Source of the DNA: an uncultured Prevotellaceae bacterium
GTDB lineage: Bacteria; Bacteroidota; Bacteroidia; Bacteroidales; Bacteroidaceae
Direction: 5' to 3'
Length of the DNA: 64,000 nucleotides
Assembly (NCBI GenBank): GCA_900316585.1
Contig: ONDM01000010.1
Span: forward strand, 62,001-126,000
Below are positions 2,954 through 31,057 of the stretch, one piece after another (position 1 is the first letter of the stretch; each line of letters opens with the position of its first letter). A program made the position numbers and the translations under genes. The notes beneath the pieces were generated by a model. It was not told the origin of the DNA, did not search any database, and saw only the letters and a list, made by a program, of their open reading frames with translations.

Positions 2954-3871
2954 CTATTCTTCTCCTCGCTGAAATGCCAGTGGAGTCATGCCTGTATGTT
3001 TTTTGAAATAACGGCAGAAGAATGACTCACAGGAAAAATTCAGGAAGTCGCTTATTTGAAGAATTGTGTATTGTCGGCTCTTTATGAGCATCTTTGCTTC
3101 ATTTATTACCAACCGGTTAATATGTTCTCCAGCATAATAGCCGGTTGTTTTGTATACAACTTGTGAGAGATACTTCGGGGTAATGCAAAGTAAGTCTGCA
3201 TAGTATTTGATGTTGCGCTCTTTCCTATAATGTGATTCTATGGCCATCATGAAACGGTTACTCAAGTCTTGGTTCCGATTAGCTTGTTGAGGCTTTTCCT
3301 CATCATCGTTGTTTCTCAGCAATATAGCATAAATTCCTAGGAATAAGACTTGCATATATCCTCTGGCTATTTCTTTCTGGAGGGAAAGGTGAACATTATT
3401 GTTCAAGCACTCTTGGACTCTTTTATAAATATGTAAAACTTCTTTAGTTTCTTCGGGATTCAAGCTGAAACAAGGGTTTGTTAATGTCCTTCTCCATATA
3501 GCAGTGGCATCCACTTGGTTTAGGATAGGGGTATAGAATTTTTCATCCATGATGATGTTGATGAATTTTGTGCCTGGATAAAAATGGGACATTAGGCCAA
3601 TCATGCCTCCCACACCGATAAGTCCCTGATTTTCTTTTATTTCAATGGTAGATACTCCCATACCGATTTCTGCTTTACCTTTCAGACAAAGGAATAGGGT
3701 CATTGAGGAACTCAGTTGAATAGGTGTTGATAGGTATTCTTTTGCTTCGTCTGATTCCAGGTCTATTTCTTGATTCAGATTGTCGACCAGATTCAATTCA
3801 TCTTTCCAAGACGAATTTTCAAATGCTGATTTTAAAAGCTTTGCATTGAGAGGTTTAATGTGTCTTTTCAT
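2954..3871 (-). CDS. AraC-family transcriptional regulator
   Basis: This is a 305-residue DNA-binding regulator. The C-terminal 100 residues form the two-helix-turn-helix AraC/XylS domain (IKYYADLLCITPKYLSQVVY, then ILQISDFLNFSCESFFCRYFKKHTG). The N-terminal 190 residues resemble the cupin-like sensing half of Bacteroidetes AraC proteins rather than a hybrid two-component protein, as no membrane segment or receiver is seen. It is convergent with the RND-TolC genes and could control them, but that is inference. A TAnnTTTG box lies just upstream on the minus strand. Confidence 0.93.
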   Translation of the reverse strand: MKRHIKPLNAKLLKSAFENSSWKDELNLVDNLNQEIDLESDEAKEYLSTPIQLSSSMTLFLCLKGKAEIGMGVSTIEIKENQGLIGVGGMIGLMSHFYPGTKFINIIMDEKFYTPILNQVDATAIWRRTLTNPCFSLNPEETKEVLHIYKRVQECLNNNVHLSLQKEIARGYMQVLFLGIYAILLRNNDDEEKPQQANRNQDLSNRFMMAIESHYRKERNIKYYADLLCITPKYLSQVVYKTTGYYAGEHINRLVINEAKMLIKSRQYTILQISDFLNFSCESFFCRYFKKHTGMTPLAFQRGEE

Positions 3872-11772: not shown

Positions 11773-12843
11773 CTAGTTTTTGCCTTCTTTTTGTAGCTCT
11801 TCCAGTTTCTGTCGGGCATTTACACTTCCTAAGGAGGCAGCCTTATTGTACCATTCTACTGCTTCTTTGATATTCTTTTGAACACCTACTCCTTCTGTGT
11901 AGCACCAACCTAGGTAGAAAAGGGCAGGGGCGTAGTTCTGTTCTGCAGCCTGACGGAATAGTTGAACAGCAGCAATTTCATTTTTATCTACACCAGTTCC
12001 ATCTAGGTAACAAGTTCCTAGTTGGGTCATGCCGTGAGGATCTTTTAGATCAGCTTCTTTCAGATACTGTTCTACAGCTTTTTTGTACCATGTCTGAGCC
12101 TTTGCTGTATTTAAGCCGATGCCTAACCCACGTTCATAGGAGCGTGCCAGTTCATATTGAGCATCAGCATATCCTTTTTCTGCAGCTTTGGCATAATATT
12201 TTACTGCGGAAGAATACTCTTCTTTGCTAGCTAAAACTAATGCTCTCCTATACAATGACTCTGGATCTAGATTTTCCAGATTGGAATCTTTCTGTTCTTG
12301 TAAAGGAATCCATCTGTTGGTTTCTAATACTTGCAACTCTTTTCCTTTAGGCAAAAAGTTCCTGGACTGGTCAGGATTTAGCATTTGTCGTTCCCCTTCC
12401 TTGTCAATCAGCACATTACTTATACGGACTCCTTTGATATCTTGCTCTATAGTACGTAACACTTTGCTGTCTTTCAGTTGGTAGTATGTTTTGTTTACAT
12501 TTCCTGCAACTTCGCCACTATTCTGAACCAGGCAAAGGTAACCATCATCGAAGACAGTTATGTTCTCAAACTCTCCGAAACAATATGCCAGCATTTCCAA
12601 AGGTCCGTTGTCTTGCAGGAAAACAGCCTTGAAACCACTATTGGCACTTAGGAACAATTCTTCGGTTCCATCATGGTCTATATCCAGTAGCATATACTCT
12701 TCAGGAAAACCTACATCCATTCCTTCAAAGTCAAGATTCTGTTTCCACGACTTATTCAGTTCTTCTATGGAATAATTCAGATTCTGTGTTGCTGCTGAGA
12801 TACTTACGAGTATTAGAGTAATAAGTGATATTATTTTTTTCAT
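11773..12843 (-). CDS. Exported Sel1-repeat (TPR-like) protein
   Basis: This 356-residue protein has a signal peptide (MKKIISLITLILVSISAATQ). A globular region follows to about residue 190, then four Sel1-type repeats (for example YYAKAAEKGYADAQYELARSYERG and WYNKAASLGSVNARQKLEEL), an alpha-solenoid used for protein binding. The N-terminal part contains a DIDHDGTEELFLS segment resembling the calcium-binding loop seen in VCBS/FG-GAP-like sequences. It is the last gene of the flippase-menA-radical SAM operon, 22 bases after the previous stop. ATG 12843 starts the signal peptide; upstream in-frame codons overlap the radical SAM gene. Confidence 0.9.
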   Translation of the reverse strand: MKKIISLITLILVSISAATQNLNYSIEELNKSWKQNLDFEGMDVGFPEEYMLLDIDHDGTEELFLSANSGFKAVFLQDNGPLEMLAYCFGEFENITVFDDGYLCLVQNSGEVAGNVNKTYYQLKDSKVLRTIEQDIKGVRISNVLIDKEGERQMLNPDQSRNFLPKGKELQVLETNRWIPLQEQKDSNLENLDPESLYRRALVLASKEEYSSAVKYYAKAAEKGYADAQYELARSYERGLGIGLNTAKAQTWYKKAVEQYLKEADLKDPHGMTQLGTCYLDGTGVDKNEIAAVQLFRQAAEQNYAPALFYLGWCYTEGVGVQKNIKEAVEWYNKAASLGSVNARQKLEELQKEGKN

Positions 12844-12865
12844 TGAAGAGGATGTGTGATTTATT

Positions 12866-13735
12866 CTACAGTCGGATGCCAAGTCCCGCTAGGATAGTAT
12901 CAATTTTAAACCCGAAGACAGCATTCATTTCTCCCGACATGCTGAAGCCGCATTTTTCACAGATTCCACTGCTTTTGTCATCGATGCACTGTGTTGACCG
13001 TCTGCCATCACAGTAAATGAAATTACATATCCAGCAGCGCAAAATGAAGTTTAGTGTTAGCATGTTTTTCAGTCCTGAAACTGAATTCATAATCCGGTAG
13101 CCTTTGCGTTTGTAGGTAATCAACTGCTTGATGACTTCTTTGCGCTGATTGTGATCAAGAGCCATGGAGGCTGTGCCTGAGAAAGGTGTATGGAAATTGA
13201 ATGCAATTTTTTGGACACCTTTGTGATTCTGTAGGAATTCAAGAACAGCTGGAACCTCTTGATAGTTCTGAGCATTTATTACCATATAAAGTGATGCATC
13301 CTTCAGATTCTCTAATAAAGATGTATCGGAAAAGTGGAGGATACTGACCCAAAGCACATCTACCTTTACTCCTAATTTTTGCCACTGAGCATAGTCGGCA
13401 GCGGGAATCATGGTGGAAGTACTGTAAAAGCCTTTATCGTAAGCCATTTGGAAGACATCATTGATTGTATGTGTTCCACTTTTCCAATGAAGCATTTCTA
13501 CACCCTCCACATCTAGCATGCGGGAACCTTGACTATAGCAGTAATCCAAATCTTGCTGAATCTCTTGGAAAGATTTGAAATAGGCACTGGGGGTAGTGCA
13601 AACTGAACAATGTCTGCAAGTACTGTCGCATCCACTGGTTATGAAGACAACACTTTGCAGTGGTTTCCTACGCCCCAGGAAGCGTGCTCTGAAGAACCAC
13701 CAAGCCAAGTATGACAGTTGGGACAGCTTATTCAT
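12866..13735 (-). CDS. Radical SAM protein with C-terminal Cys cluster
   Basis: This 289-residue radical S-adenosylmethionine enzyme has the 4Fe-4S motif CDSTCRHC at residues 36-43 and a further Cys at 46. A second Cys-rich region near the C-terminus (CWICNFIYC, then CIDD and CEKC) could hold an auxiliary Fe-S cluster, as in SPASM or twitch enzymes. The barrel between them is short. Substrate is unknown. It sits 18 bases downstream of menA and behind a polysaccharide flippase, so a role in modifying a lipid or quinone is possible but unproven. Confidence 0.88.
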   Translation of the reverse strand: MNKLSQLSYLAWWFFRARFLGRRKPLQSVVFITSGCDSTCRHCSVCTTPSAYFKSFQEIQQDLDYCYSQGSRMLDVEGVEMLHWKSGTHTINDVFQMAYDKGFYSTSTMIPAADYAQWQKLGVKVDVLWVSILHFSDTSLLENLKDASLYMVINAQNYQEVPAVLEFLQNHKGVQKIAFNFHTPFSGTASMALDHNQRKEVIKQLITYKRKGYRIMNSVSGLKNMLTLNFILRCWICNFIYCDGRRSTQCIDDKSSGICEKCGFSMSGEMNAVFGFKIDTILAGLGIRL

Positions 13736-13753
13736 AGGCCATCAGCGTAAAGG

Positions 13754-14671
13754 CTACCAGAGTGCTATGGTTACTAGTAGCCCAAGAATGGTGAAATTTC
13801 TAGGACTTTCGTAATAAATTACATTCAACTCGTTGCCTATTCTGATTCTATTTAGTTTAATCCAAGAGCCGATATGCAGAATTAGATATGGTATAGAAGA
13901 ATAAAGCAGTCCTATCCAAGTCATCTTTCCATTGAGATACAGCAGAATGATCATCACAATGCAAATCAGACCTGCTCCTAAATAGAGGAAGCGTCCGAAT
14001 GGCTCTCCAAGGATGGCAATGCTAGTATGCTTTCCAGCTTCCGGGTCCTCATACCTGTCACGATAATTGTTCACAATGAGAAGTGTGTCGATGGAGGACC
14101 CTGCAATGATAGATGCCCAAACTGCATCCCAGCAAAGGGTGTAGGTTAATACATAATATGTGCCGCACACAGGTATCAATCCAAAACACAACAGCACAGT
14201 GAGGTCACCAAGTCCGTGGTAGGCACAGAAAGTGCTGTATAGGAAAGTGAAGGCAATGACCACTGCACCCAAAAGCACGATTTCCCAACCGCCCCATACC
14301 AGTTTGTCCCAAACCAGGTAAAGAATGGCTAAGCCGATAAGAGAACCTAATGTCAGTGCAACTGCAGTACCACAGTACATGGCTTTGCGAGTGAGCAGAC
14401 CATTTGCATAGATACGGTCTATACGATCTGGGTCACTTTTGTCCAACCCTCGTTGGAAATCCACCACATCATTGATGAGGTTTGCAGCTACTTGCATACA
14501 GCAGGCAAACAGTCCGCAAAGGATGGCTACTGTCCAGGAGAAACGTTCAGGATAAGTGCCATGAGCCAGGCCTGAACCTACTAAAACGGTCATCAATGCT
14601 CCGGCCAAACTAGTAGGACGGATTCCCCAAAACCATGATTTTAAGGAGTTTACCTCATTCTTATTCTTCAT
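13754..14671 (-). CDS. menA: 1,4-dihydroxy-2-naphthoate polyprenyltransferase
   Basis: This inner-membrane UbiA-superfamily enzyme attaches the polyprenyl tail to 1,4-dihydroxy-2-naphthoate in menaquinone synthesis. The two Asp-rich prenyl-diphosphate sites are visible: NDVVDFQRGLD at residues 67-77 and NNYRDRYEDPEAGKHT at 201-216. About eight to nine hydrophobic helices fit the fold and the 305-residue length is typical. NNxRD plus GKxT is the MenA rather than UbiA pattern. It is the second gene in the leftward operon, 49 bases after the flippase. Confidence 0.94.
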   Translation of the reverse strand: MKNKNEVNSLKSWFWGIRPTSLAGALMTVLVGSGLAHGTYPERFSWTVAILCGLFACCMQVAANLINDVVDFQRGLDKSDPDRIDRIYANGLLTRKAMYCGTAVALTLGSLIGLAILYLVWDKLVWGGWEIVLLGAVVIAFTFLYSTFCAYHGLGDLTVLLCFGLIPVCGTYYVLTYTLCWDAVWASIIAGSSIDTLLIVNNYRDRYEDPEAGKHTSIAILGEPFGRFLYLGAGLICIVMIILLYLNGKMTWIGLLYSSIPYLILHIGSWIKLNRIRIGNELNVIYYESPRNFTILGLLVTIALW

Positions 14672-14720
14672 ATTATAAGTTGTTTATTAATCTACAGTCA
14701 GGTTCTCTCTCGATTGTGAA

Positions 14721-16358
14721 CTATTCTTCATCGTCCTCAGGAGTATCTACAAGTCTTGGGAAATCTTTCTTTGTTTCCTTGATGACATCTGTAGCATCCG
14801 ATTCCTTGTTCTTTACATTTATAGCTATATCTTCAGTTTGTGCATTTACGCCATCCAATGGGAGAACTGCCGGAATCTTGTTTTTCTCTGCAGCTAATGC
14901 TTCTTCTTCCTGACCGGCACGTCGGGCTACTCTCCATGCTGGGATCATAAGCAGGCCGACCAAGCCAGTATAAGCCAGCAAAAGTAATGTGTGGAAAGCA
15001 AGTTTGACAAGCAAATTACTGTCCAGACCTAAGTATTTGTCTAAATAGAGTGATGCCGCATAAATGCCTAGCATCAGTACAAAAATTAGGATGATACGCC
15101 ACCATTTGTATGGGAATGGATTGAAACGGGCACCCAAATATGCACTGATGAAGAACATTACCACATAGCTGGCCAAATGTCCCCAAGCAGATGCCCAATA
15201 TGAATACTTTGGCATGAAAATAATATTGACGGAGGCTGTAACGACCAAGCCAGCCAATGTTATCCAGATTGCCATTTTTGTCCTACCACTCAACTTGTAC
15301 CACATGGATACATTGAACAGCATGCCTAAAAACATGTACGCCAGCAACATGATAGGAATAACACCTAAACCTGAGCGGAAATCCTTTCCTAGAATCAGAC
15401 CAATAATGTCGACGTAAAGAATCACTCCTAAAAAGACCAAGCCACAAAAGGCTGTGAATACCTCCATAACGGCAGCATAAAGTTCCTTGGAACTCTTGTT
15501 CTTGGCCCGTTGGAAGAAGAATGGTTCTGCAGCAAAACGGAACATCTGAATGAAGAGATTCATGATTACCGATAGCTTTACGGCAGCCTGATAGACACCT
15601 AAGCTAGAACGCCAGGCATCAGCACTGGTGTCGAAGTATCTGAAGAGATATCTGTCCAAAAAGTCATTGGCAACGCCTGGCAGCTGTGCAATCATCAGTG
15701 GAATGGAATATACCAGCATTTGGCGGAGCAACTTGCCATCCAGGCTGAAGGTGAATCTCCACAGTGTAGGAATGAAAAGGACGAAACACACGATACAGCT
15801 TATAAATGTGGCTAGGATGGGGTAGTCGAAATCAGGCTTGGCTGGATAGATGAAAAATAGGAACAGGTTGGCTCCCAACTCGGTCAGAATCTTGATGGTC
15901 TTGAACGTGGCGAACTTGATTGAACGGTGTTCTTGACGAAGTTTGGCAAATAGAATAGCGGTGATGGTATCACTGACCAGAATGCCAGCTACGAAGATAA
16001 TGACTCTTTGATAGCCATCATAGCCCAGCCAACTAGAAATGGGGTCTGCCAATGCAATCAAGGCTGCCAGAAATGCCATGCTTATCGCTGTAACGGCAGT
16101 CAAGGCATTGGAGTACACTTTGTTCGCATCTACACCTTCTTTGTTGGCAAAACGGAAACATCCTGTTTCCAGCCCCATAACCAGTACAACTTGCAGCACA
16201 CCAATATAGGCCATGAACTCAGTCACCACACCATACTGTTCTGTACTGAGCGCGCGGGTGTAAAATGGTACAAAGCAAAAATTAATGAGACGAGCCAGAA
16301 TGGTACTCATACCATAAATCGCGGTCTCGCCTGCCAATTGTTTCAGTGGATTAGCCAT
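14721..16358 (-). CDS. Polysaccharide flippase (Wzx/MVF-like)
   Basis: This 545-residue membrane protein of the MOP/polysaccharide-transport family opens with the typical LAGETAIYGMSTILARLINF. About 14 hydrophobic helices extend to roughly residue 470, followed by a charged cytosolic tail of about 70 residues (ending LVDTPEDDEE). It probably moves lipid-linked oligosaccharides across the inner membrane. ATG 16358 is chosen because a canonical promoter with both boxes lies at 16379-16410, inside any longer frame. First gene of the operon with menA, a radical SAM gene and a Sel1-repeat gene. Confidence 0.92.
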   Translation of the reverse strand: MANPLKQLAGETAIYGMSTILARLINFCFVPFYTRALSTEQYGVVTEFMAYIGVLQVVLVMGLETGCFRFANKEGVDANKVYSNALTAVTAISMAFLAALIALADPISSWLGYDGYQRVIIFVAGILVSDTITAILFAKLRQEHRSIKFATFKTIKILTELGANLFLFFIYPAKPDFDYPILATFISCIVCFVLFIPTLWRFTFSLDGKLLRQMLVYSIPLMIAQLPGVANDFLDRYLFRYFDTSADAWRSSLGVYQAAVKLSVIMNLFIQMFRFAAEPFFFQRAKNKSSKELYAAVMEVFTAFCGLVFLGVILYVDIIGLILGKDFRSGLGVIPIMLLAYMFLGMLFNVSMWYKLSGRTKMAIWITLAGLVVTASVNIIFMPKYSYWASAWGHLASYVVMFFISAYLGARFNPFPYKWWRIILIFVLMLGIYAASLYLDKYLGLDSNLLVKLAFHTLLLLAYTGLVGLLMIPAWRVARRAGQEEEALAAEKNKIPAVLPLDGVNAQTEDIAINVKNKESDATDVIKETKKDFPRLVDTPEDDEE

Positions 16359-16378
16359 AGATCTCTTTAAAATTCTCG

Positions 16379-16410
16379 CAAAACTAAGGAAAATATCAGT
16401 GAAATCCAAA
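16379..16410 (-). promoter_or_regulatory. Promoter of the flippase-menA operon
   Basis: On the minus strand TTTG (16407-16410), a 20-base spacer, then TAGTTTTG (16379-16386), close to the ideal Bacteroidales -33/-7 arrangement. The leader before ATG 16358 is short. Confidence 0.8.
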
Positions 16411-16448
16411 ATTTGAGAGATATAAAGTTCAGGGACGGAAGAAAAATG

Positions 16449-16612
16449 TATAAAGAAAAGTCCCTAGATGATTATCTAGGGACTCACTATTATAACCTTA
16501 AATTATTAACTTTATTACAAACTTAAATCATATCTGTTTTTTATTAATGCTATTGTGACGTTATTAAATTACAGTTAATGGTCTCTATATAGCTATGTTA
16601 AACATTTATTAT
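16449..16612 (-). ncRNA. Candidate small RNA of about 160 nt
   Basis: A canonical minus-strand promoter (-33 TTTG 16647-16650, exactly 19 bases, -7 TATCTTTG 16620-16627) is followed about 130 bases later by a perfect 11-bp terminator (16459-16484) with a T-rich tail. Between them the only reading frames are of two to six codons, so no protein is encoded. The unit lies between the flippase operon and the 16.8 kb small protein and is separated from both by their own signals. Promoter and terminator are seen directly; that the product is a functional RNA is inference. Confidence 0.55.
16459..16484 (-). terminator. Intrinsic terminator of the candidate small RNA
   Basis: A perfect 11-bp inverted repeat AGTCCCTAGAT / ATCTAGGGACT with a 4-base loop. 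On the minus strand it is followed by TTTCTTTATA. Confidence 0.8.
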
Positions 16613-16615
16613 TAC

Positions 16616-16708
16616 ACTGCAAAGATATGTGTAAATGTGACACAAACAAAGAGAAAAACCCTATTTTAAAGTAGGGAAATCCCTATAAGTGTAAAATAGA
16701 CGCAATAT
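16616..16708 (-). promoter_or_regulatory. Duplicated promoter/operator element, copy A
   Basis: This roughly 93-base element carries TATCTTTG (16620-16627), TTTG 19 bases upstream (16647-16650), and an upstream block with the motif TAGGGATTTCCCTA and a second partial copy (AATAGGG). It is nearly the same as the element at 18652-18747 over its whole length, although what they drive is different (candidate RNA here, small lipoprotein there). The repeated, partly palindromic AGGGATT-CCCT sites look like a regulator binding region. Confidence 0.7.
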
Positions 16709-16780
16709 AGACCGATTTTTTTATGAAAAAGTGGGGTTAAAGGGCATATTATCTTTTAGTGAAATGGCTTTTTATACACA

Positions 16781-16815
16781 AACTGCCCCAGGAATTTATG
16801 TTACCTGAGGCAGTT
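16781..16815 (-). terminator. Terminator of the 16.8 kb small exported protein
   Basis: A 12-bp stem AACTGCCCCAGG / CCTGAGGCAGTT. The one imperfect pair is C-A on the plus strand but G-U in minus-strand RNA, so it serves the leftward gene just upstream. The T-tract is weak. Confidence 0.65.
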
Positions 16816-16840
16816 CCATACATTGAATTGAAAAAAGAAT

Positions 16841-17200
16841 TTATTTGGTATAATCTGCTATGTGGTTATTGTTGAGGGTTGCATTCAGGATCTGCAGGTA
16901 CTTCTTGTATTGGTTGATACTAAGTACACGGCTTGCACTCTTCAAGTTCTTATTTACTGCTTTCTTGATTTCCTGTTTTTTAGAGGTCTCGTCATTGTTC
17001 TGAATAGCTTCCTGGATAGCCTCCTGAAGATTGATGGTTGCCTCTTCCAAAACGCTGCTTTGGTATCCGTCCATCTGGAGAGCGCTCTCCATCTTGGTCA
17101 TTCTACTCTTTACTGAATTGTCAGTGTTGTTGTTTACTGCTGCGAATGAGCTTGCTGATACTGCGAAAACTGCTACTAAAGAAAGGATTAATTTTTTCAT
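16841..17200 (-). CDS. Small exported protein of unknown function
   Basis: This 119-residue protein has a clear signal peptide (MKKLILSLVAVFAVSASSFA) and a mainly helical, Gln/Asn/Lys-rich mature part (EEATINLQEAIQEAIQ; KKQEIKKAVNKNLKSASRVLSINQYKKYLQIL). The length and helical, Met-poor composition are distantly like periplasmic CpxP/Spy-type proteins, but I cannot assign it. It has a textbook promoter and its own terminator, so it is expressed on its own, probably strongly. Confidence 0.82.
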   Translation of the reverse strand: MKKLILSLVAVFAVSASSFAAVNNNTDNSVKSRMTKMESALQMDGYQSSVLEEATINLQEAIQEAIQNNDETSKKQEIKKAVNKNLKSASRVLSINQYKKYLQILNATLNNNHIADYTK

Positions 17201-17240
17201 AATTTCTATTTTTTAATGATTATTATTCTGTTTGACACTA

Positions 17241-17271
17241 CAAAGGTATGATGGAAAGATAGGGATTCAAA
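17241..17271 (-). promoter_or_regulatory. Promoter of the 16.8 kb small exported protein
   Basis: Minus-strand TTTG (17268-17271), exactly 19 bases, then TACCTTTG (17241-17248). An inverted repeat AATCGACGAA / TTTGTCGATT (17306-17335) lies upstream and could be an operator. Confidence 0.8.
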
Positions 17272-17349
17272 GTCCGGTCCGACTATTGCAGGTGAACTTT
17301 CGACCAATCGACGAATCTGAGGCTCTTTGTCGATTATCTATAATAAAAA

Positions 17350-17400
17350 AAGGTATAAAGATAGAGACTTGCATTTGCTGCGTGCTCTTCCTTATACCTT
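17350..17400 (-). terminator. Long terminator hairpin downstream of the 17.7 kb gene
   Basis: On the minus strand AAGGTATAAGGAAGAG pairs with CTCTATCTTTATACCTT (about 16 bp, one bulge, one G-U pair) and is followed by TTTTTTTATTA. It probably ends transcription from the 158-residue gene about 250 bases upstream, leaving a long 3' untranslated region. The rest of 17401-17649 holds no reading frame or promoter I can support. Confidence 0.7.
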
Positions 17401-17649
17401 ATATATAATAATGGATGTAAAGACGGTGATGACTAATTATGTTGGAATATGCTTTGTAAAATGAATAGGTTGTGACTAAAATTTTACAAATCTCCCTTAT
17501 AGAAAATGACACCTGTGACCATGGCATTTAGGGCTAAAAATTACTCTCTCCCTGGAGAAATATTTTTCCCCTACTGGTGAATTATTCTTCGCTAGTTAAT
17601 GCCTTGAGTGTTCTTTCTGCTTTTCTTGTATCTTCTTGGTAAAAAATAT

Positions 17650-18126
17650 TTATTTCTTCTTTTTCTCAGCGCCGCTGTACTTGCTTGTCCCGTAGTTGAT
17701 GGCCTGGAAATGAGTTTTCTGGTAGACTTCAAAGAGCTTTTCGTCTAAGATGACTTGGTTGGCATCATCTATATGGTCTATGATACGGACTTCAGAGAGA
17801 AAAGCTTTTTTGATATTCTCGTCTTCGGCTAGCTGAGGCCACCATTCTTTCAGCAGGGCTTCCTTAACATCGTCTAGGGTATAGCTGCAGAAACGATCCC
17901 TCTTGGCTTTGCTGTCAAGAAATTTATGGATGCGTTTTACATGCTTCTTGTCCTTCTCCATAGGGGTTAGGTGGTCGAAATCCAAATGGGTAAGAGGAAT
18001 AGCTACTGCCAGCACTGTCTCATCAATGCCAATAGAATGGTTCTCTGTGGTAAGAGCCAAAGCAGTAAGGTCGGATGAAATCTGGCGATTGATGATCTGA
18101 AGTGAATATGTGTTACTCATGTGCAT
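17650..18126 (-). CDS. Hypothetical cytosolic protein, 158 residues
   Basis: The protein (MHMSNTYSLQIINRQ; HLDFDHLTPMEKDKKHVKRIHKFLDSK; ends SGAEKKKK) has no signal peptide or membrane helix. It is charged, with a mixed alpha/beta appearance and a basic tail. An alternative start is the ATG at 18120, two codons in. A -7 box lies about 70 bases upstream. I do not recognise the family. Confidence 0.78.
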   Translation of the reverse strand: MHMSNTYSLQIINRQISSDLTALALTTENHSIGIDETVLAVAIPLTHLDFDHLTPMEKDKKHVKRIHKFLDSKAKRDRFCSYTLDDVKEALLKEWWPQLAEDENIKKAFLSEVRIIDHIDDANQVILDEKLFEVYQKTHFQAINYGTSKYSGAEKKKK

Positions 18127-18196
18127 AAATAAATTAGTGTATTGTATTTATGAGGATTTTTAGCTTGTTTTTCCCGCATTTTCTCCTTTTTTTTTG

Positions 18197-18204
18197 CAAA
18201 TATA
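18197..18204 (-). promoter_or_regulatory. -7 box for the 158-residue protein
   Basis: TATATTTG on the minus strand, 71 bases before the start codon. No -33 match is seen. Confidence 0.5.
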
Positions 18205-18293
18205 GCAAATTCTGAAAAAAAAATTAGTTGTCTTTTGGCAGAATAGTAATCTTGAGGTAAGAAAAAATGCATTAGTAGTTGTTTTGTAAGGTT

Positions 18294-18327
18294 AGAGCCC
18301 ACCAGGATTTAAAATCTGATGGGCTCT
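18294..18327 (-). terminator. Hairpin after the 18.4 kb lipoprotein
   Basis: AGAGCCCACCAGGATTT pairs with AAATCTGATGGGCTCT with one bulged base. One pair is valid only as G-U in minus-strand RNA, suggesting it terminates the leftward lipoprotein gene, although the T-tract is poor. Confidence 0.5.
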
Positions 18328-18378
18328 TCATTCTAGAATCAACTTTTATTTAACAACTTGAAATTATGAAAAATGTGG

Positions 18379-18612
18379 TTACCATTTAGCATTACGATCA
18401 TGACGGCTGCGCTGAGGACCACGGTAGCTTTCATCGTTGAAATTACGGGTGCGACGTGATTCCTGACGACCTTCATTGCGACTTGCATACAGTTCCTGCT
18501 TTGGTGCCTTGTTTACGTTAAGAGATATACTTGGCAGTGGGCGTACGCTCAAACAACTTGTCAAACTCATTGTCATCACTAAGCAAACTAGTATGTAAGT
18601 AAACTTTTTCAT
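18379..18612 (-). CDS. Small basic lipoprotein
   Basis: This 77-residue lipoprotein has the lipobox LTSC (Cys near residue 20). The mature part of about 57 residues is strongly basic and Arg/Asn/Ser-rich (RNEGRQESRRTRNFNDESYRG; ends RSRHDRNAKW). No folded domain is obvious, so it may be an unstructured envelope protein that binds anionic polymers; this is inference from composition. Its promoter is copy B of the duplicated element, with TTGC-N19-TATCTTTG. Confidence 0.78.
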   Translation of the reverse strand: MKKFTYILVCLVMTMSLTSCLSVRPLPSISLNVNKAPKQELYASRNEGRQESRRTRNFNDESYRGPQRSRHDRNAKW

Positions 18613-18651
18613 AATGCTTTATTTTTTAATTATCTTTTGTTTTATTTTGTT

Positions 18652-18747
18652 ACTGCAAAGATATGTGTAAAAATAACACAATGCAAGAGGGAAATCCCTA
18701 TTTTGCAGTAGGGGAATCCCTAAAAGTGTAAAAAATACGCAAAATAT
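18652..18747 (-). promoter_or_regulatory. Duplicated promoter/operator element, copy B
   Basis: This is the near copy of 16616-16708. On the minus strand TTGC (18683-18686), 19 bases, TATCTTTG (18656-18663), and upstream the blocks AGGGATTCCCCTA and AGGGATTTCCCT. It drives the small basic lipoprotein. Between here and 18916 I see only AT-rich sequence. Confidence 0.7.
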
Positions 18748-18916
18748 ATGTTTTTTTGAGGCTTTTAGGGCTATTTTCTTGATTTTTTTAGTGATTTTAG
18801 CTTCAAGTTGGTGGAATATTCGGTAAGCAAGCAAATCTTTTTCGAGTTCAGAAATTAAGAGCGGGTAACTTTTAGTAAAAAAAACTCGGGTTGATGTAAG
18901 ATTCAGTAATTATGTT

Positions 18917-18924
18917 TATATTTG
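18917..18924 (+). promoter_or_regulatory. -7 box for the 54-residue protein
   Basis: TATATTTG on the plus strand, 21 bases before ATG 18946. No TTTG sits at the ideal distance. Confidence 0.55.
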
Positions 18925-18945
18925 CAATATAATATAATAATGTAG

Positions 18946-19110
18946 ATGACTCCGGAATTATTAGTGGAAAGTTCCATATATTATGGCATGTATGACTATG
19001 ATACATTGCTGTCTCTGGCAATTACGTTGTTGGAGTTTAATCCGTTGGCCACTCCTGAGGACTATGATTACTTTTTGGAACAGTCCATGCAGGATGATGG
19101 CTCATTATAA
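18946..19110 (+). CDS. Small acidic protein, 54 residues
   Basis: The reading frame starts at ATG 18946 shortly after a -7 box and ends at TAA 19108-19110. The product (begins MTPELLVESSIYYGMYDYD, ends LEQSMQDDGSL) is acidic, Leu/Tyr-rich and probably helical, with no signal peptide. It lies 130 bases upstream of the GH43 gene in the same direction and may share its transcript, since no separate promoter for GH43 was found. Function unknown. Confidence 0.6.
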   Translation: MTPELLVESSIYYGMYDYDTLLSLAITLLEFNPLATPEDYDYFLEQSMQDDGSL

Positions 19111-19240
19111 CTGCAAGATTCGGCTTTTAGAATCCTGAAGAGCTTCTTCCCACTTATGGCACTATATTGTGCAGAGATGCTATTCTAAGAAGCTGCTCAA
19201 ATGATGGATCTAAAATAAAACAATAAACTATTGACTCTTT

Positions 19241-20272
19241 ATGAATAGATTTTTATGTATTTTAAGTTGTGTAGCTCTGGTGGCTTGTGCACCATCTGCC
19301 CACCAAGCAGGGGAAAAAGAACCCGTACATCATGAGTTGTGTGGGAACCCTATTATTACTAACATGTATTCGGCTGATCCTTCAGCACATGTTTTTGGTG
19401 ATTCTTTATACATTTATCCAAGTCATGATGAGGATCGTGCCGTGGGATTTGACATGAAGGATTATCATGTATATGTTACTGCTGATATGCAGAACTTTGA
19501 AGATAAAGGCGTAATCTTCAGACCGTTTGAACAGACCACCTGGGCAAAGTCTGCTGCATGGGCTCCCGATTGTGTGGAACGTAATGGAAAGTATTATCTT
19601 TATTTCCCAACAGACCAGAAGCATATTGGTGTAGCGGTTTCTGACCATCCTTACGGTCCTTTTGAGGATGCCTTAGGTCATCCGCTGATTTCTATAGATA
19701 CTCCGGGGGTAATCTGTGACAGGGATTTCATAGACCCTTGTTGTTTCATTGACGATGATGGACAGGCTTATCTGTTCGTGGGACAGAACACCTGCTGCTG
19801 TATTAAATTGAACGAGGATATGATTTCGTATGATGGTGAAGTACATATTATAGAGGGGCTAGTAGAGTTTTTTGAGGCTTCTTGGGTACATAAGTATAAT
19901 GGCAAGTATTATCTTTCATACAGCAACAGTGCACTGACAGGTCACCAACCAGAGATAGTCTATGCCATGGCTGATAATCCGTTGGGCCCTTATGATTATA
20001 AAGGTTCAATTTTAGGGCCTGTAAGTAGTGGCACTAACCACCATAGCATCGTGAAATTTGGTGCAGATTGGTTACTTTTCTATCACACTGGTGATTTGGG
20101 ACGTCAGAATTGGCCCGATAATCCTGTAATGGGTGCGTTCCACCGCTCTATTTGTGTGGATTATCTTTACTATAATGAAGACGGTACCATAAAACCGGTG
20201 AAACCTACCAGAGATGAAGAAAGAATAAAGAATAATACGGCTTTCAAAGAGCCATATGAATTAAAGCTATAA
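19241..20272 (+). CDS. GH43-family glycosidase, lipoprotein
   Basis: This 343-residue protein has a lipobox (LVAC, Cys 16) and a five-bladed GH43 propeller. Likely catalytic base Asp is in YSADPSAHVFGDSLYIYPSHDE, the pKa-modulating Asp in DRDFIDPCCFIDDDG, and the general acid Glu in FFEASWVHKYNGKYYLSYS. Family members act on arabinan, xylan or arabinogalactan side chains. A run of Cys (CCF, TCCCI) around residues 166-188 is unusual for an exported protein. A strong terminator follows. Confidence 0.9.
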   Translation: MNRFLCILSCVALVACAPSAHQAGEKEPVHHELCGNPIITNMYSADPSAHVFGDSLYIYPSHDEDRAVGFDMKDYHVYVTADMQNFEDKGVIFRPFEQTTWAKSAAWAPDCVERNGKYYLYFPTDQKHIGVAVSDHPYGPFEDALGHPLISIDTPGVICDRDFIDPCCFIDDDGQAYLFVGQNTCCCIKLNEDMISYDGEVHIIEGLVEFFEASWVHKYNGKYYLSYSNSALTGHQPEIVYAMADNPLGPYDYKGSILGPVSSGTNHHSIVKFGADWLLFYHTGDLGRQNWPDNPVMGAFHRSICVDYLYYNEDGTIKPVKPTRDEERIKNNTAFKEPYELKL

Positions 20273-20277
20273 AATAA

Positions 20278-20306
20278 AACAGACCCAAATCTGGGTCTGT
20301 TTTTTT
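20278..20306 (+). terminator. Terminator after the GH43 gene
   Basis: ACAGACCCA pairs with TGGGTCTGT across a short AATC loop, followed by a run of seven T. Confidence 0.85.
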
Positions 20307-20320
20307 AATTATGAAGGATT

Positions 20321-20677
20321 TTAAACTTTTTTATTTCGGAATACATGGATAAGTGCAATTAACTCAATTATCCAGAGGAATGCAATGACCCAGAATTTCC
20401 AGCTTATCGGAGTGAAGAACACAGCTACCAGTGCTACTAAGGAGAATAGCAGTAGAATCCAATAAAACTTGATCCATCCTTTACGGCTCACTTGTACTTG
20501 AGAACCTAATGCTTTTTTAAGAATAAAAGTAGCCAGAACGATGGCTACAACAACAGCACCAAGCATAATTCCCAATGTGGAAAGGGATTTCACATTGTCA
20601 AGGATAAAAAATTTAGGGCAAAGAAGCATCCAGAAAAACCCAATCGTACCAATTTGCCAAGTTGATCTTTTTTTCAT
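20321..20677 (-). CDS. Small four-helix membrane protein
   Basis: This 118-residue protein has four hydrophobic segments: about residues 8-26, 33-53, 70-89 and 92-112 (for example IMLGAVVVAIVLATFIL and FYWILLLFSLVALVAVFF). A basic start and end (MKKRS; FRNKKV) put both termini in the cytosol. I do not recognise a named family. A -7 box lies 27 bases upstream. Confidence 0.8.
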   Translation of the reverse strand: MKKRSTWQIGTIGFFWMLLCPKFFILDNVKSLSTLGIMLGAVVVAIVLATFILKKALGSQVQVSRKGWIKFYWILLLFSLVALVAVFFTPISWKFWVIAFLWIIELIALIHVFRNKKV

Positions 20678-20703
20678 TTTTATTATAGTATCATATTTGA
20701 GTA

Positions 20704-20711
20704 CAAAGATA
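20704..20711 (-). promoter_or_regulatory. -7 box for the four-helix membrane protein
   Basis: TATCTTTG on the minus strand, 27 bases before the start codon. Confidence 0.55.
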
Positions 20712-20835
20712 AGGGAAATCTATCTTTTGATTGTTATACTTTTGCAGAATGAAATGTACGAAAGGATTTATTTTTATCAATTTTGGGCATTTATTAAAAG
20801 CGATATTGTCTGCAAACTGTCTGGAGATAAGAAAA

Positions 20836-20863
20836 AGCCTGAATAGCTTTTACTACTCAGGCT
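20836..20863 (-). terminator. Terminator after the His-rich protein gene
   Basis: An 11-bp stem in minus-strand RNA (AGCCTGAGTAG / CTATTCAGGCT, one G-U pair) followed by TTTTTCTTA. Confidence 0.8.
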
Positions 20864-20882
20864 CTAGGTACTGTAATCAGTT

Positions 20883-21275
20883 TTATCTTAATATGGACAA
20901 AAGTGCTGCTGTTACTACCGCTCCAGTGGCTACTGCTGCAACTGTTCCAGCATCGTTATAATGGTGGTGATGGTAGTGTACACGTGCAGGTGGTGGAAGC
21001 ACTGGTACAGGAGTTGGATGATAAACCACTACTGGTCTTGGGACTGGATAATGAATCGCATGTCTCCGAGGTGCTGGTGCATGATGGTGCTTGGGCGCAT
21101 GTCTATGCATTTTGTATGCTGAGGCTGCATGTGGTCCGTGTAATGGAGCAGGAGCCTCTATAGTGTAATGTACGTCACGATGGTGATTTCTTCCTTTATA
21201 TTTTCCTTGAGCATTTGCGTTCATTGAACCGAATGCCAACATGGCTGCTACCATTCCAATTATCATCTTTTTCAT
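20883..21275 (-). CDS. Exported His/Pro-rich protein with C-terminal hydrophobic segment
   Basis: This 130-residue protein has a signal peptide (MKKMIIGMVAAMLAFGSMNANAQ). A low-complexity middle rich in His, Pro and Ala follows (MHRHAPKHHHAPAPRRH; ARVHYHHHHY), then a hydrophobic C-terminus (VAAVATGAVVTAALLSIL). The His clusters could bind Zn, Cu or Ni at the envelope and the tail could anchor it in a membrane. These are inferences from composition. Its promoter has the same TTGC-N19-TATCTTTG form as copy B. Confidence 0.78.
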   Translation of the reverse strand: MKKMIIGMVAAMLAFGSMNANAQGKYKGRNHHRDVHYTIEAPAPLHGPHAASAYKMHRHAPKHHHAPAPRRHAIHYPVPRPVVVYHPTPVPVLPPPARVHYHHHHYNDAGTVAAVATGAVVTAALLSILR

Positions 21276-21319
21276 AGCTTTTCTCTATTATAGTTTTACA
21301 ATCCCTTTTCTTTGTACTG

Positions 21320-21350
21320 CAAAGATAGACTGGGAATTATCCCCTTGCAA
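21320..21350 (-). promoter_or_regulatory. Promoter of the His-rich protein
   Basis: Minus-strand TTGC (21347-21350), 19 bases, TATCTTTG (21320-21327), then TGCAGTAC as in copies A and B. The upstream AGGGATT blocks are only weakly represented here. Confidence 0.7.
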
Positions 21351-21491
21351 TTTGTTTTTCCTAAAATAATTGGGGGGATAACCTAATCTTTATAGGGATT
21401 TTCCATGAGTATATTTAAAAATGAATGGGAATTTTAGATTTTGTTCTTGTTAAATAATTGTAAGACTATGATATAGTTAGATTCTTTTTAT

Positions 21492-21499
21492 TATTTTTG
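21492..21499 (+). promoter_or_regulatory. -7 box for the FISUMP-domain protein
   Basis: TATTTTTG on the plus strand, 47 bases before ATG 21546. Confidence 0.45.
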
Positions 21500-21545
21500 T
21501 CTCAGATGTGGGAGAATGATGTGATTAACTCTTAAAATAACTTAT

Positions 21546-30884: not shown

Positions 30885-30958
30885 CGCTTCAAGATGGGCT
30901 TGAACCAACGACCCCCTGATTAACAGTCAGGTGCTCTAACCAACTGAGCTATTGAAGC
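30885..30958 (-). tRNA. tRNA-Asn (GTT), second copy in transcript order
   Basis: The 74-nt cloverleaf has acceptor GCTTCAA / TTGAAGC, anticodon stem-loop CCTGA CTGTTAA TCAGG with anticodon GTT, and T-arm GTTGGTTCAAGCC. It is identical to the copy at 30984-31057. CCA is not encoded. Confidence 0.95.
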
Positions 30959-30983: not shown

Positions 30984-31057
30984 CGCTTCAAGATGGGCTT
31001 GAACCAACGACCCCCTGATTAACAGTCAGGTGCTCTAACCAACTGAGCTATTGAAGC
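30984..31057 (-). tRNA. tRNA-Asn (GTT), first copy in transcript order
   Basis: Identical in all 74 nt to the downstream copy, with a 25-base spacer between them. Both are probably cut from one precursor that ends at the terminator 30856-30881. A near-consensus -7 (TACTTTTTG, one base too long) lies about 22 bases upstream. The interval 30794-31221 holds only these tRNAs, two terminators and the promoter for the S41 gene. Confidence 0.95.

Follow-up and report, generated by a model that had tools for sequence, protein, structure and literature searches.

An ORF-less promoter-terminator unit in a Prevotellaceae genome as the probable remnant of a small His-rich lipoprotein gene

The window analyzed here (64,000 nucleotides of contig ONDM01000010.1 from an uncultured Prevotellaceae bacterium) carries a candidate small RNA (sRNA) unit, read on the minus strand, at positions 16449 to 16650. 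The unit lies between an upstream gene encoding a 119-aa exported protein (16841 to 17200, minus strand) and a downstream flippase gene (Polysacc_synt, PF01943; 14721 to 16358, minus strand). The promoter described in the initial annotation, TTTG-N19-TATCTTTG, is present on the minus strand with a spacer of exactly 19 nt. Its -7 box (16627 to 16620) is of the TAnnTTTG type reported as the Bacteroidetes consensus (PMC7366714), but the -33-like TTTG (16650 to 16647) is conserved neither at the corresponding locus of a sister species, where it is replaced by TTTT, nor in a paralogous promoter, where it is replaced by TTGC. The predicted transcript start and a leftover 5' untranslated region (UTR) with the 3' end TTTAACATAG occupy positions 16614 to 16593 of the minus strand.

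At the distal end of the unit is an intrinsic terminator (16485 to 16449, minus strand), in which the hairpin AGTCCCTAGAT-AATC-ATCTAGGGACT (16485 to 16458) forms the perfect 11-bp stem claimed previously and is followed by the T-rich tail TTTTCTTT. It has a folding energy of -18.3 kcal/mol (z = -6.2 against shuffled sequences) and ranks among the best terminator-like sites of positions 12000 to 21000. Also as claimed, there are no open reading frames (ORFs) above six codons: a scan of positions 16614 to 16449 for ORFs with a start codon returned only frames of 6 (MFNIAI), 3, 2, and 1 codons, and a hidden ORF using alternative starts was rejected, as none exceeded six codons. The unit thus combines its own promoter and intrinsic terminator with the lack of an ORF, as an sRNA gene would. 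The flippase gene has a separate promoter past the terminator (TTTG-N20-TAGTTTTG, 16410 to 16379, minus strand), the -7 box of which is kept in the sister species as TAGCTTTG; a role of the unit as an attenuator or leader of the flippase gene was therefore rejected as the main reading. Elsewhere in the window, two adjoining tRNA genes (30885-30958 and 30984-31057, both minus strand) gave identical Rfam scores.

The region occurs in one full copy in the window genome, with a second match (82% identity over 92 nt) located 5' of a gene encoding a 77-aa lipoprotein (18379 to 18612, minus strand). The reported sharing of a promoter with a lipoprotein gene is therefore real. The conserved part of the promoter, unlike the -33 TTTG, is a pair of TAGGGAwwTCCCTA-like sites 22 bp apart. 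The first palindrome, TAGGGATTTCCCTA (16685 to 16672, minus strand), is a putative regulator site that matches the family motif perfectly and begins 58 bp upstream of the -7 box. The second, TAGGGTTTTTCTCT (16663 to 16650, minus strand), is degenerate, begins 22 bp downstream of the first, and touches the -33 position on its 5' side. In the paralogous promoter, the palindrome pair (18722 to 18689, minus strand) is placed 59 bp from its -7 box. With two palindromes 22 bp apart and TAnnTTTG at 58 to 59 bp, the promoter of the unit belongs to what is defined in the present analysis as the TAGGGA-palindrome envelope promoter group.

With up to two mismatches allowed, the core pattern occurred 19 times in 17 of 301 genomes of the family, while in a sample of 198 genomes from across the order the window's own genome was the only one to contain it; a reversed control pattern gave no matches. 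For 21 of the 22 sites inspected, the distance from the start of the first palindrome to the start of TAnnTTTG was exactly 58 or 59 bp, compared with a background frequency of TAnnTTTG of about 0.0005 per position. Motif sites are spread over several genera within a single Bacteroidales family (L164:6334, plus strand; L122-L130; L166-L179; and window positions 16685-16650 and 18722-18689, minus strand). The genes that follow them mostly encode exported proteins, judging from translations read by eye, including DD(L/M)YF(V/T)PKK proteins, glycine-rich zipper-like lipoproteins, other lipoproteins, and His/Pro-rich proteins. At one site, the protein encoded next has no signal peptide. The well-matched sites other than that of the unit lie 5' of protein genes, mostly for exported products.

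We read this group as a putative activator-controlled envelope regulon, in which the activator would act together with the primary sigma factor; a connection to envelope stress is guesswork based on the target genes. A literature search for the motif string returned mammalian papers only, mainly on NF-kB decoys, and a regulator of the paired-site promoter was not described in the literature searched. The PM2 promoter motif of Bacteroides thetaiotaomicron (-10/-30) was set aside as different from the paired-palindrome motif. A weaker site with six mismatches and the right spacing (L155:2564, plus strand; G003:C2) lies 5' of a gene whose product looks like a SIMPL-type periplasmic protein. Within the window, a gene encoding an exported His/Pro-rich protein (20883-21275, minus strand) is preceded by a region (21410 to 21327) that, on visual inspection, resembles the motif in very degenerate form and is below the reach of the nine-mismatch motif scan. 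The protein itself resembles the L179 target protein in style.

Most of the window is syntenic with the closest available relative, UBA4293 (contig L036, the same contig as G002). Both neighbors of the unit have counterparts there, the flippase being 91% identical and the 119-aa exported protein 80% identical at the amino acid level. Between these two genes, L036 contains a promoter, a lipoprotein ORF, a 3' UTR, and a terminator, in that order (L036:3409-3917). The ORF (3527 to 3751; MKKISYFIAVLVMAISFASCGPEF...HHHH...) encodes a His-rich lipoprotein of 74 aa, MKKISYFIAVLVMAISFASCGPEFSDVYVYERPHPEWRHRYPHHHHDDHHHHHHDDHHKDHHKDHHHTKIYVRF, with the lipobox ASC. The promoter is approximately 80% identical to that of the window unit, with four mismatches to the motif versus two in the window. 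This gene therefore has its promoter, 3' UTR, terminator, and both neighbors in common with the window, and differs by possessing the 74-aa ORF.

Alignment of the two loci showed one large gap of approximately 245 nt (L036 3521-3765), which comprises the whole ORF and little else. The window 5' UTR is shortened, and its end, TTTAACATAG, aligns to TTTAAAATAG of L036, a few bases before the start codon. In the window, TTTAACATAG is joined directly to TATATAGAGA..., the counterpart of which in L036 lies 15 nt past the stop codon, placing the putative deletion junction at positions 16594 to 16591. The main part of the proposed sRNA (16591 to 16486, minus strand) aligns to L036 from 3766 onward and corresponds to the former 3' UTR, with 83% identity in ungapped columns and 70% over all columns; L036 carries indels within this stretch. 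The terminators are homologous, the stem being perfect in the window and containing one G-U pair in L036, and one pair is changed on both sides (A-T in the window, G-C in L036). As the L036 interval has a matching promoter, 3' UTR, and terminator around its ORF, the window unit looks like this gene with approximately 245 nt excised. Since what separates the matching promoter and 3' end in UBA4293 is a small lipoprotein ORF, the unit appears to be a protein gene minus its coding sequence.

An assembly or binning error that lost approximately 245 nt of repetitive His codons would produce a similar picture, as the missing part is rich in CAT/CAC repeats and the window genome is a draft of 19 contigs. 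However, no long direct repeat was seen bordering the missing segment, the non-repetitive signal-peptide codons are also gone, and the junction retains a base (C) and a shortened 5' UTR that could not be produced by collapse. We consider such an error very improbable. Comparison of window positions ~18800 to 21500 with G002 also showed synteny gaps around the His/Pro-rich gene, with HSPs breaking at 20783-21446, which suggests that other small envelope genes have been gained or lost here as well.

The window's own genome, estimated to be 95% complete, yielded no copy of the His-rich lipoprotein ORF. A more distant member of the genus, G003, encodes a 63-aa relative (MKKILFALACVGLSLSLSSCFGPELWDDYAYY...HGHHHHPAPAPHHHGRYHRY) with 42% identity, sharing the lipobox and the His-rich tail. 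Its gene is located behind a matching promoter motif, but elsewhere in the genome. The ORF is thus present in an outgroup as a non-syntenic copy and absent from the window genome. Because G003 has a related lipoprotein gene behind the matching promoter type, the ancestor of the genus probably already had the ORF, and this promoter was probably coupled to a His-rich lipoprotein ORF before the window lineage and UBA4293 split. A deletion in the window lineage is consequently the simplest reading. The converse, that an insertion between promoter and terminator gave UBA4293 its ORF and that the window retains an ancestral sRNA gene, agrees with the single intact syntenic copy in the data and with the promoter being paralogous to that of the neighboring lipoprotein gene. 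It is highly unlikely in view of the G003 gene, which joins the matching promoter type to a related ORF, and of the protein genes driven by the other well-matched motif sites. The intact gene was kept in synteny by one genome only (UBA4293). In the other four genus members, the best flippase matches were only 37 to 39% identical, making synteny at the locus uninformative, and an exact-pattern search of viral contigs for another strain of the window species gave no match.

Conservation of the sRNA body is ordinary: 54% of 145 orthologous noncoding 107-nt segments score at least as high. Noncoding segments far from any promoter score below those nearer, so that conservation of the body is intermediate, and the body is better conserved than the adjoining, plainly unconstrained spacer (16690-16836). 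Fourfold-degenerate sites of the flippase gene are 46% identical to L036, versus 83% in the body. Selection on the body was initially inferred from this difference, but the inference was dropped, as other noncoding segments are equally conserved. The whole predicted transcript has a low folding energy (z = -3.4), which is due to the terminator alone: without it, the transcript folds like shuffled sequence (z = +0.37), and a conserved structured RNA was rejected on these grounds. Rfam searches, among them permissive runs on the window and L036, returned nothing near a cutoff; the best among the matches listed was FopS, at 20.9 bits versus a gathering cutoff of 56. A search of 301 family genomes for the unit found promoter matches only and no homologue of the body, although with two candidates scored per genome weak homologues escape, such as the body in G002.

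Signs of decay were looked for in the promoter and terminator, and none were found. Their intact state fits a recent loss and equally fits selection keeping the transcript. One possibility is that the 3' UTR of the lipoprotein mRNA was already regulatory and that deletion of the ORF made it a free-standing, functional sRNA under the envelope regulator. The undecayed promoter and terminator speak for this option, as do the stem pair changed on both sides, the moderate identity of the body to L036, and the occurrence of 3' UTR-derived sRNAs in B. thetaiotaomicron and proteobacteria (PMC7366714, PMC9438474). However, the average conservation of the body, the indels in the corresponding stretch of L036, and the lack of structure and of an Rfam family argue against it, and we regard it as unlikely. 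Slightly more doubtful is a nascent regulatory sRNA, in which ORF excision would have fused the 5' and 3' UTRs into an RNA that is controlled by the same envelope activator and targets envelope mRNAs.

Bacteroides intergenic sRNAs such as GibS and the FopS family (RF04319) resemble the window unit in having their own promoter, an intrinsic terminator, and no ORF. However, the sequence and promoter of GibS are conserved across Bacteroides (PMC7366714), whereas the window body is not conserved beyond average, and the score for FopS is far from its cutoff. As in sRNAs derived from mRNA 3' UTRs (PMC9438474), the window RNA would consist mainly of an mRNA 3' end and terminator; unlike them, it comes without a coding sequence, and its predicted start is the former mRNA promoter rather than a processing site.

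We therefore consider it likely that the unit is the remnant of a small His-rich lipoprotein gene of the envelope regulon, the coding sequence of which was deleted almost exactly in this lineage, since the sister species has a lipoprotein gene at the equivalent place between equivalent neighbors. The activator would bind the TAGGGA palindromes here, as at the lipoprotein gene 2 kb away, and RNA polymerase would start about 7 nt past TATCTTTG, at ~16613, and stop at the terminator near 16450. The predicted product is a noncoding "ghost" mRNA of ~160 nt, with the 5' UTR fused to the 3' UTR, which would be coregulated with the 77-aa lipoprotein gene and most likely has no selected or trans function of its own. 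The terminator would still insulate the flippase gene with its own promoter. Recent loss with a ghost transcript is thus favored over a retained sRNA. Of the original sRNA proposal, a short noncoding transcript running from promoter to terminator is likely to stand. A dedicated sRNA gene is not, since the sister species has a lipoprotein ORF at this position and the body has neither above-ordinary conservation, structure beyond the terminator, nor an Rfam relative; to call the finding an sRNA gene is probably to misread a protein gene that has lost its coding sequence.

The locus would be a clean example of how deletion of a small-protein gene leaves an ORF-less promoter-terminator pair, the usual signature of an sRNA gene, and sRNA catalogues resting on this signature should compare sister genomes. 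Overall, the promoter group is more interesting than the sRNA candidate and is the part worth following, as its architecture, in which paired TAGGGAwwTCCCTA sites keep a constant distance from the -7 box, marks what appears to be a set of envelope genes within a single Bacteroidales family.
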